IMG/VR virus record: IMGVR_UViG_3300042691_032585
Coordinates: 1-23,984 of that record
Strand: one strand, 5' to 3'
DNA length: 23,984 nt
Source of the DNA: a virus
Below, piece after piece: positions 2,978 through 5,921 of the stretch. The position numbers were made by a program, and so were the translations under genes. Within the stretch, counting starts at the first letter, position 1. Each line of letters begins with the position of its first letter. The notes beneath the pieces are model-generated. The model had not been told where the DNA came from. It worked only from the letters and a program-made list of their open reading frames with translations, and did not search any database.

Positions 2978-4978
2978 TTAGGGTTTATAACCTGTTGTAC
3001 GAATTAAGCTTGAGGTATCAGCTCTGTTTTTTTCACTGGTAGATAGTGTCCTACCTCTTGGGTCTACTATGGTAACTTGAACTGCTTTACCTTCAGAATC
3101 CTTGAGGAACTTAAGTAGTTCTTCCATTACCAGTTGAGTCTTTGCATCTTTCCCGCCATAGTTGCCCCTTACTCCTGCATTAACATCTCCCCGAGCTGCA
3201 GCAAGGTCAGCTCTAAGCATAGCATCATTCTGGTCAGTAGTAGTGGAGAAGTCAAAGTTCCTAAAGAACCACTTACCATAAGCTACTACCACTTTAAACA
3301 TGTATACTATAGAGTCCTTGATCTTTACTACCATATTGTGGAAACCATCTGAGAATTTATATAGGGTGAATAATAGTGCCCCTATACCTATAGCTATCTT
3401 ACCCCAAAGAGGTATAAACCTTATGATCTTGGATAGGTTAGCTACGTTAAACCATTTGAAGGAGAAAAAGTCAAGTAGCCATTTCCAACCCATCCCCTTT
3501 TTAAGGAATGTACCCGTGAAGCCACTTATTAGTCTTCCAGCTCGGTTAAAGTAGGAAAATTTGCCTTGCATATTACGAGCTAATAGGAATAAACTATCTA
3601 TGAAACCCGGACTTGCTGCCGTTAGTTTTCCGAGTAAACGGTTGGCAAAGAAGAAGGTAAGTACACCCGTTAGGGTATATAATACTACTCCCAAAGCAGT
3701 TACAGCCATTAATACTTTCCCAAGTCCCGTTTTACCAAAGGCTGCTAAACCCCTGAATGCTTCTGCTAATAATCTCATAGCGGGAATTACTATGGGCATT
3801 ATGGCTTCTGAGAATGAGTCAGCTAATTCAAAAATAGCATTGTTGAACAGCTGTATTTTAGCTGCGTAAGATTCCATCCTTATTTTATTTACATTCTCTG
3901 CTTCCTTAGCCACATTACCATCTTCCAGGGACTTTATTAATTCTTGTAAAGTTTTGGCAGGTGTGCCCCTAGTACTCTCAGCTTTTAGGAATTGGAATAG
4001 GTTTGATTCTCTTGCTCCCCTCTTACCAAAAAGATCGAGTAAAGCCGAGTTCCTTTCCAGTAAAGGAAGTTTTTGTAATCCCTCCTGTAACTTGGTAAGC
4101 ATCTCAAATGAAGGCTTGAATCCCCCAGTTTTAGGATCAATAAAGTCAGCGGGAGTCAATCCAAGCCTAGCTAAAGCCTTCTTCTGCTTAGGCCTAGCAG
4201 AACTCCCCACAGCCTCTGCCAGATAAGTATAGAAATTACCAAAGGTAGTACCCGATATACTTCCCTTTAAACCCGACTGAGCAATACCGGCAGTGATAGC
4301 CAAGGTTTCATCCAGAGTCATATTGTACATCCTGAGGAAAGGAGTAGCATACTTAAAAGTTTCATATACTTGGGCGGCATCAACAGTAGTCATGTTGAAA
4401 GCTTTAGTCATCTTATCCACTACTAATTGGGCCTCATCAAAAGTTTTCCCATACTGGGCCATGATGTTTAGGAGAATATTAGCAGCTCCTTCTTCTCCTC
4501 CGATTTGAGGTAAATCAGCAGCAGAAGCAAATAACATCATCGCTTTCGTCATCTTCTGCATACCCTCTAGTCCTACCCCACCTTTTGCAAGTTCTGTAAA
4601 GCCTTGGGAGATCTCAGTAGCAGTATAAGGGACAGTTCTTGAAAGATCAATAGCTATAGCTTTTAGCCTACGCATACTGTCTTCATACTGTTTCGCTGTC
4701 CCGCCCATTCCCCCTACTCCAATGGTTAAGTGTAAAGCAGCATCAAAATCTTTTACTGCCATTACTGCTTGCCTCATTCCATACAACATACCCGTCCCAG
4801 CCAACGCCATTCCAAGCCCTCTATCCCGTATAGCTGTAGTTTGAGCTATGATTTGTTTCTGGGAATGAGCAGCAAGGCTGTCAAATGACTTCCTTATTTT
4901 AGCAGCATTACGTGTAAAATCATCCCTAAGGAAGACTGATACACCGAGGCCTAGTACGCTGTGTGTGTTACGAAACAT
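2978..4978 (-). CDS. Tail tape measure protein
   Basis: A 666-aa protein that sets tail length and occupies the tube lumen. Residues about 75-330 carry the TP901-type tape-measure core: VKDFDAALHLTIGVGG, LSRTVPYTATEISQGFTELA, KGGVGLEGMQKMTKAMM and the MTLDETLAITAGIAQSGLKG segment. Hydrophobic stretches at about 425-455 and 520-545 match the membrane-active part of these proteins, thought to help the tube cross the inner membrane. The charged C-terminus includes VTIVDPRGRTLSTSEKN. At roughly 1.5 angstroms per residue, 666 residues suggest a tail near 100 nm (established rule of thumb, not measured). The ATG follows AAATAAACACA with no Shine-Dalgarno. It lies 5 nt after the stop of the frameshifted chaperone product. 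Confidence 0.92.
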   Translation of the reverse strand: MFRNTHSVLGLGVSVFLRDDFTRNAAKIRKSFDSLAAHSQKQIIAQTTAIRDRGLGMALAGTGMLYGMRQAVMAVKDFDAALHLTIGVGGMGGTAKQYEDSMRRLKAIAIDLSRTVPYTATEISQGFTELAKGGVGLEGMQKMTKAMMLFASAADLPQIGGEEGAANILLNIMAQYGKTFDEAQLVVDKMTKAFNMTTVDAAQVYETFKYATPFLRMYNMTLDETLAITAGIAQSGLKGSISGTTFGNFYTYLAEAVGSSARPKQKKALARLGLTPADFIDPKTGGFKPSFEMLTKLQEGLQKLPLLERNSALLDLFGKRGARESNLFQFLKAESTRGTPAKTLQELIKSLEDGNVAKEAENVNKIRMESYAAKIQLFNNAIFELADSFSEAIMPIVIPAMRLLAEAFRGLAAFGKTGLGKVLMAVTALGVVLYTLTGVLTFFFANRLLGKLTAASPGFIDSLFLLARNMQGKFSYFNRAGRLISGFTGTFLKKGMGWKWLLDFFSFKWFNVANLSKIIRFIPLWGKIAIGIGALLFTLYKFSDGFHNMVVKIKDSIVYMFKVVVAYGKWFFRNFDFSTTTDQNDAMLRADLAAARGDVNAGVRGNYGGKDAKTQLVMEELLKFLKDSEGKAVQVTIVDPRGRTLSTSEKNRADTSSLIRTTGYKP

Positions 4979-4983
4979 TGTGT

Positions 4984-5921
4984 TTATTTAATTTTGCCTA
5001 ATTCATCTTCCATATCCTGGAAATGCTTTGAGGCTATTTCATTTGCCCTTTTTCTTTTGGTTATAGGTAGGGTAATATATTCATGGTAGGTAAACCTGAA
5101 TCCCGCCTTGCAGACATAGAAATAGTCCCAGACTATATCTGCACTGGAAAGAAAAAATCAGGTTGAGTGATTACTGCAATTTCAGTTACCTTACGGCAAG
5201 AAGAATTTTGACAGGTTATAGCAGTAGTACCTTCCCAAGCAGGATCGTTCAAAGCAATATCTTTCCTGATTTCTGCCATGTCTTTAGCAGAGAAGGGACG
5301 GAAGTTTTGGAGCTTTATAAACCTGCCCGATTCATCCTTCCATTCTATATGTCTACATAAGAGTTCATGGTTCTTATTTAGGTCATTTCCGTCTATATCT
5401 AGTAGCATCTTTTCTCCCACTCCATCTAAGTACTTATACTTAATTTCTTTGTTACTAGAAAGCTTGATTATTCTCTCACTTTCCTTGCCATTTGGGTAAG
5501 GGGGTATGAGATCTTTGGTCCACTCTGGGGAATCCTTATCAGGAAAAGGTTTACTGTAATCCCAATCATAGGCAGCAAGGTTTTCTTCTAAAGGGGGATT
5601 CTCTTTCTGGCAATGTGGGCACTTAAAGATGAAGGTCATGGTATTACCTAATGAAGCAATACGGGACTTTAAAAGTAGACTGTATTTATCCCTTACTTTC
5701 CACTTAGCTATACCGTGGGAGTTAAGGGCTACCTTCTGACCATCAATTTCTTTAAGGATCTCCGCAATAAACTTATTGATGGAAGATCCCTCTATTGCAC
5801 TACCTTGACGGGATATGATAGCATCATCTTCTCCGTTCTGTTCTCTGAAGGTAACTTTCATACCTGAGGGTAGAACAGCATTAAATAAAGTAGGCTGGAT
5901 TAAATTAATAACTTCTGACAT
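4984..5921 (-). CDS. Tail assembly chaperone, -1 frameshift fusion product (gpGT-like)
   Basis: This is the predicted longer product of the chaperone gene, made if ribosomes slip -1 at T TTT TTC (5157-5151). The first 257 residues are shared with the short form. Re-reading C5151 then gives 55 more residues, including DIVWDYFYVCKAGFRFTYHE, YITLPITKRKRANEI and FQDMEDELGKIK, ending at TAA 4986-4984, 5 nt before the tape-measure ATG. The -1 frame has a TGA right before the heptamer and no ATG, GTG or TTG until shortly before its end, so it cannot plausibly be a separate gene. The extension resembles the short helical C-terminal parts ('Y-H-(F/E)…I…L…RRR…') seen in phage tail chaperones. Lambda G/GT is the model: the extension binds the tape measure while the shared part recruits tube subunits. 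Total length would be 312 aa. Confidence 0.8.
5109..5157 (-). promoter_or_regulatory. Programmed -1 frameshift signal: slippery T TTT TTC plus stem-loop
   Basis: On the minus strand the heptamer TTTTTTC occupies 5157-5151, in phase with the chaperone reading frame (GAT TTT TTC). After a 7-nt spacer (5150-5144), TGCAGATATAG (5143-5133) can pair with CTATGTCTGCA (5119-5109). This gives an 11-bp stem with one G.U pair and a 13-nt loop. An alternative inner stem ATAGTC/GACTAT with a 3-nt loop is also possible. The zero-frame stop TAG lies inside the 5' arm. Heptamer, 5-9 nt spacer and downstream structure are the three standard parts of a -1 frameshift site. Confidence 0.82.
5133..5921 (-). CDS. 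Tail assembly chaperone / gp26-like baseplate-assembly protein, unshifted product
   Basis: This is the 262-aa product of normal termination at TAG 5135-5133. The start is taken at ATG 5921 (MSEVINLIQPTLFNAVLPSG); the 15 upstream in-frame residues are hydrophobic and overlap the spacer after the terminator. The N-terminus (LPSGMKVTFREQNGEDDAII, 17-36) resembles the T4 gp26-type 'baseplate' family often found between tube and tape measure. Two cysteine pairs, C101/C104 (CPHC) and C237/C242 (CQNSSC), could hold one zinc ion. By position between tube and tape measure it takes the place of the tail assembly chaperone, and the frameshift at its 3' end agrees. The gene lies just after a strong terminator, so its transcript level may be lower than that of sheath and tube. 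Confidence 0.72.
   Translation of the reverse strand: MSEVINLIQPTLFNAVLPSGMKVTFREQNGEDDAIISRQGSAIEGSSINKFIAEILKEIDGQKVALNSHGIAKWKVRDKYSLLLKSRIASLGNTMTFIFKCPHCQKENPPLEENLAAYDWDYSKPFPDKDSPEWTKDLIPPYPNGKESERIIKLSSNKEIKYKYLDGVGEKMLLDIDGNDLNKNHELLCRHIEWKDESGRFIKLQNFRPFSAKDMAEIRKDIALNDPAWEGTTAITCQNSSCRKVTEIAVITQPDFFFPVQI

Follow-up and report, generated by a model that had tools for sequence, protein, structure and literature searches.

The window, which is the whole stretch of 23,984 bases analysed here, carries on its minus strand a series of tail genes in which a chaperone gene lies between the genes for the tail tube and the tape measure protein. The features of this region are as follows, in the order in which the minus strand is read.

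8056-6491, minus strand: tail sheath protein of a contractile tail (phrog_23, 4e-34)
6484-6026, minus strand: tail tube protein, gp19-like, upstream of the chaperone (PF06841, 2.5e-16)
5921-5133, minus strand: TAC-N, the predicted zero-frame tail assembly chaperone, 262 aa, PF12322 (Pfam, PHROG, AlphaFold)
5160-5158, minus strand: TGA of the −1 frame, abutting the heptamer on its 5′ side (sequence)
5157-5151, minus strand: slippery heptamer T TTT TTC, in phase with the chaperone frame (sequence)
5151-4984, minus strand: −1 frame extension (TAC-C), 55 codons from CTT at 5151, then TAA at 4986-4984
5150-5144, minus strand: spacer TTTCCAG, 7 nt (sequence)
5143-5109, minus strand: stem-loop, putative stimulator, 5143-5133 pairing with 5119-5109 (folding)
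5135-5133, minus strand: zero-frame stop TAG, which ends the 5′ arm of the stem (sequence)
4978-2978, minus strand: tape measure protein, 666 aa (PF10145, 9.6e-29; phrog_28, 3e-46)

The initial annotation had placed a programmed −1 frameshift at 5157-4984, and re-reading the minus strand reproduced all of its coordinates and counts. The zero-frame 3′ end of the chaperone reads CAA CCT GAT TTT TTC TTT CCA GTG CAG ATA TAG, with the TTT and TTC of the heptamer as zero-frame codons. The TAA of the extension ends 5 nt ahead of the tape measure ATG at 4978. As deduced from the sequence, the short product TAC-N has 262 aa and the long product TAC-NC would have 257 + 55 = 312 aa. Only one ATG, GTG or TTG occurs within the extension, an ATG (in ...QDMEDELGKIK) close to its 3′ end; with this start so late and a TGA abutting the heptamer, an ordinary separate gene is unlikely, as had been claimed. 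The window contains 37 stop-to-stop frames that are 100 codons or longer. In three of these the last 15 codons include an in-phase heptamer, and a −1 opening of at least 40 codons behind the heptamer was found for the chaperone frame only.

The zero-frame protein matched PF12322 (T4_baseplate) with an E-value of 1.3e-7 (32 bits, cut-off 24.5) and PHROG 150 (baseplate hub) with an E-value of 2e-5. Both T4 gp26 and T4 gp51 match PF12322 in Pfam; residues 1-201 of gp51 cover the domain, with about 48 extra residues beyond. AlphaFold, run with alignments from which rows of annotated phage records were left out, predicted the short form with a pLDDT of 93. The top viral fold matches of this model were T4-like hub assembly proteins, SP-15 among them, and the closest PDB fold was the HK97 tail assembly chaperone 2ob9, at a non-significant E-value of 0.71; a PDB sequence search with the zero-frame product found no relative of solved structure. 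Judged by its sequence, the gene between tube and tape measure encodes a member of the T4 gp26/gp51 (PF12322) family of tail assembly chaperones. A second, longer PF12322 paralogue was not found in the 23,984-base contig, which gave one match and may be a fragment.

Two Cys pairs, CPHC and CQNSSC, occur in the window chaperone (5921-5133). Similar pairs are present in T4 gp26 (CPEC) and in copies of the family from Bacillota, and are mostly missing in the aligned close relatives, several of which the window chaperone also outscores against PF12322. Elsewhere in the window, a protein of the head-tail region, encoded at 10592-9837 (minus strand), has an N-terminal stretch that by eye is PKD-like (VPTSWAWNFGD...GSYTITVTVTN).

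A scan of viral contigs with the zero-frame protein as a single sequence found no relatives. These were gathered via tube and sheath scans, and then with the chaperone of a related phage and a chaperone alignment, which gave 39 distinct contigs, window included (38 relatives). They come from numerous metagenomes, phage entries in GenBank and a single MAG, and 35 were left once near-identical contigs had been removed. Relatives are mostly 30-60% alike in protein, and nearest-neighbour identities among the 35 contigs range from 36 to 85%. A further match, L025, was rejected as spurious and short. Two more contigs, L056 and L057, are incomplete or broken and stand outside the 39; in L056 (2956-3690) the chaperone frame stops early while the heptamer, the zero-frame tail and the −1 extension persist downstream, which reflects an internal deletion, a broken gene or an assembly fault.

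Every one of the 39 contigs has an in-phase heptamer (TTTTTTC in 37, TTTTTTA in 2) and a homologous −1 frame extension of 47-76 residues that runs up to the tape measure gene. The initial annotation had named two findings that would speak against a frameshift, namely loss of the slippery site in relatives and disruption of their −1 frame; all 39 contigs keep both site and frame. The zero-frame stop lies exactly 15 nt past the heptamer in 32 of the 39 contigs and 12-24 nt past it in the others. Searching with the fusion by tblastn recovered the zero frame followed by the −1 frame, in the same order, in eight independent relatives, and conservation of the extension begins right at the slippery site. 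Codon usage at the site is also constrained. In all 35 contigs, the codon preceding the heptamer ends in T (GAT, GGT, AAT, AGT, TCT, GCT or CAT), against a background in these genes of 35% T at third positions, and the first Phe codon at the heptamer is TTT, which makes up 54% of the Phe codons of these genes. The amino acid preceding the heptamer varies (D, G, N, S, A or H). Given that the T-ending codon and TTT are invariant while the amino acid is variable, a constraint on slippage, not on the protein, explains the pattern. Comparative genomics thus strongly supports a programmed −1 frameshift as the source of a longer chaperone.

A stimulatory structure downstream of the slippery site is a frequent but not a required part of tail chaperone frameshifts of the lambda G/GT kind. 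The stem of the putative stimulator in the window has 11 bp, including one G-U pair, and closes a 13-nt loop. The fold of 5150-5100 has an energy of −17.1 kcal/mol (z −2.7), equalled by 2 of 200 shuffled sequences, and the 40 nt downstream of the heptamer rank at 2.1% among local windows in folding energy. RNAalifold on 15 aligned sites found no consensus structure, since the stems lie at about the same place in differing registers. Each contig was then folded separately against local controls: 12 of the 35 ranked among the 5% of local windows that fold most stably, where 1.75 would be expected (KS p 8e-4, kinship ignored), and a good part of the relatives lack the hairpin. The hairpin is therefore genuine in the window, where the 11-bp stem proposed by the initial annotation is exact, and is enriched among the relatives without being universal, so that its conservation holds only in part. 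The further proposal, that a zero-frame stop placed within the stem adjusts how much of each product is made, is unsupported as a general rule, given that the distance from heptamer to stop varies by branch of the family (12-24 nt here, 3 nt and 21-39 nt in others described below).

Could the long form arise from an extra base in the mRNA, added by RNA polymerase on the T run, instead of from the ribosome? A T6 tract is present in every relative and one added base would lead to the identical frame. However, the run is not longer in the relatives, its phase fits X XXY YYZ, hairpins are enriched at the ribosomal distance, and six T is short for RNA polymerase, whose slippage usually needs 8-9 T or more; we consider such transcriptional slippage improbable. 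Still less likely is the view of the extension as a small independent gene that depends on translational coupling or re-initiation. Many records annotate it so, for example Bellamy gp11 and the 'baseplate hub assembly catalyst' of K566, and most cyanophage-type contigs have an ATG 3-6 codons into the extension; yet in the window the only possible start lies near the end of the extension, conservation runs from the slippery site on, and a free-standing gene would not keep the heptamer and the phase. A sequencing or assembly error, that is, a spurious one-base deletion in one continuous chaperone gene, has a negligible chance of being right, for although runs such as T6 are well known for indel errors in single contigs, the same frame relation recurs in 39 distinct contigs, in each of which the zero frame closes within a few codons, and the heptamer shows synonymous-site conservation.

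On the sequence evidence, we regard chance and artefact as excluded and a programmed −1 frameshift as the only good reading: it is very likely that slippage at T TTT TTC makes the long chaperone form in this contractile-tail phage. Slippage, product ratio and partners are inferred here from the lambda system (PMC5009743). Most ribosomes would reach the TAG and make TAC-N (262 aa) as the major product. A minority, slowed by the hairpin where it is present, would move back by one base on T TTT TTC as the two Phe tRNAs switch their pairing from TTT TTC to TTT TTT, and would read 55 more codons to give TAC-NC (312 aa) as the minor product. Many copies of TAC-N would then coat the tape measure protein, and the few copies of TAC-NC would recruit tube subunits via their extra domain, like lambda gpG and gpGT.

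AlphaFold predicted the extension as three helices (pLDDT 91.6). No credible Pfam match to it was found, and a Pfam profile search of 16 members gave no DUF6760 match at E ≤ 1, which rules out the DUF6760-like identity suggested earlier. Direct comparison of the extension profile with the tail of gp51 was not significant. The two can be connected through intermediates: in pairwise comparisons, the extension matched the extensions of a branch that is read in the +1 frame (E 5e-6), these matched the extensions of cyanophages (E 4.5e-7), and the cyanophage extensions matched the gp51 tail (E 1e-9). The extension thus appears to correspond to the C-terminal part of T4 gp51, by transitive sequence similarity only.

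A −1 extension was also detected in other branches of PF12322. Copies of the family in five Bacillota genomes all have T TTT TT(C/G) followed by a −1 extension, with the zero-frame stop 21-39 nt past the heptamer; a search of 398 genomes of another phylum gave no PF12322 matches. One more distant viral contig (L008) likewise ends in T TTT TT(C/G) and has a −1 extension. In all 80 cyanophage-type contigs (L083-L162), gp26 ends in T TTT TTC and is followed by a −1 extension, and the zero-frame stop lies 3 nt past the heptamer. Synechococcus phage Bellamy (L081, 1171-2072) and Vibrio phage K566 (L082, 1159-2180) also have the heptamer and the −1 extension, which their records annotate as a 'baseplate hub assembly' gene of its own. 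Going by these sequences, what is annotated in cyanophage-type T4-like phages as a small 'gp51 / baseplate hub assembly' gene is probably a −1 extension of gp26, and its annotation as a separate gene is probably wrong. A distant PF12322 relative (L007, 3020-4071) has a −1 extension in which the canonical heptamer was not found; GGC TTC TTT TTG stands at the conserved place and the zero frame continues for many codons.

Frameshifting in tail chaperones is textbook knowledge for long-tailed phages, and Xu, Hendrix and Duda reportedly described in 2004 the conserved tail assembly chaperone frameshift, with lambda G/GT. The window shares with lambda G/GT the position of the site between the major tail protein and the tape measure, an in-phase heptamer at the 3′ end, a short and a long product and the −1 direction. 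It differs in its T TTT TTC, which is not the lambda sequence, and in its N-terminal domain, PF12322; sequence homology to lambda gpG is not part of the likeness. Vladimirov et al. (2022) are said to have identified T4 gp26 and gp51 (Straboviridae) as tail assembly chaperones. The window shares with these PF12322 and, via the intermediates, a C-terminal domain like the gp51 tail, whereas T4 and its Straboviridae kin use two genes where the window uses a single gene and a frameshift. With cyanophage-type phages (Bellamy; Kyanoviridae), the window shares T TTT TTC at the gp26 end and the −1 extension, but there the stop lies 3 nt past the heptamer instead of 15, and the extension is annotated as its own gene.

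One review describes the chaperone frameshift as a widely conserved trait of long-tailed phages, 'except T4' (PMC5009743), and another source states that in some T4-like phages the short and the long form come from a pair of paralogous genes and involve no frameshift (PMC10885494, citing Vladimirov et al. 2022). In contractile phages of the Vandenendeviridae and Andersonviridae, phage Adele among them, a chaperone frameshift at an invariant GTTTTT is described in PMC12846349, which names Vladimirov et al. 2022 as the source for poly-T −1 signals in T4-like phages. These phages share with the window a contractile tail, a T-rich −1 site and an extension up to the tape measure gene; their chaperone locus is a different one, and the likeness is one of site and layout. 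Since poly-T −1 sites in chaperones of contractile phages have already been reported (PMC12846349), the window is a further case of a known kind.

What the comparison adds is a −1 frameshift site that is near-invariant in the T4 gp26/gp51 chaperone family, though T4, the best-known member, has no frameshift. Within this family, the frameshifters comprise a large lineage of uncultured contractile phages, copies in Bacillota genomes and cyanophage-type T4-like contigs, and given this spread across PF12322 lineages, the two-gene arrangement of T4 looks like a derived exception. For annotation, gene callers leave the 150-bp stretch empty or give it a false small gene; the correct call follows where a PF12322 ORF ends in T TTT TTN ahead of a tape measure gene.

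The extension is in the +1 frame in SP-15, LIS04, GXN1, immuto, Mel-JY01, BRock and one huge phage. Within this +1 branch, TTTYTTTNNCCTGA is invariant in the immuto-like contigs, being present in all 79 complete ones (L163-L242), each of which has an in-frame TTT(C/T)TTTNNCCTGA just ahead of the zero-frame stop. Flavobacterium phage immuto itself (L077) has the same in-frame motif and a +1 extension. Within the motif, CCT is found in 79/79 contigs and GAC in 76/79; in the same genes, CCT accounts for 38% of Pro codons and GAC for 22% of Asp codons. The motif resembles the YUU_U +1 slip of the prfB type, with a CCUGA element 3′ of it, and no match for TTTYTTTNNCCTGA among described +1 signals was found in the papers searched. 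The less expected aspect of these data may be that one PF12322 family uses one Phe-Phe site for −1 or +1 recoding by branch, with gene duplication in T4. We give about even chances to the full proposal, in which a single Phe-Phe position close to where the short form ends would serve −1 recoding at T TTT TT(C/A/G) in most branches, a further branch would shift +1 there at YTT T, and T4 would have exchanged recoding for a duplicated gene. If true, the PF12322 family preserves a history in which both the direction and the mechanism of frameshifting changed while the site stayed in place.

Among the +1 extensions, those of L013 (SP-15), L074 (LIS04), L078 (GXN1), L080 (BRock), L076 and L079 are without the full TTTYTTTNNCCTGA, and SP-15, LIS04 and GXN1 have in common NCC CGA TTY shortly ahead of the zero-frame stop.
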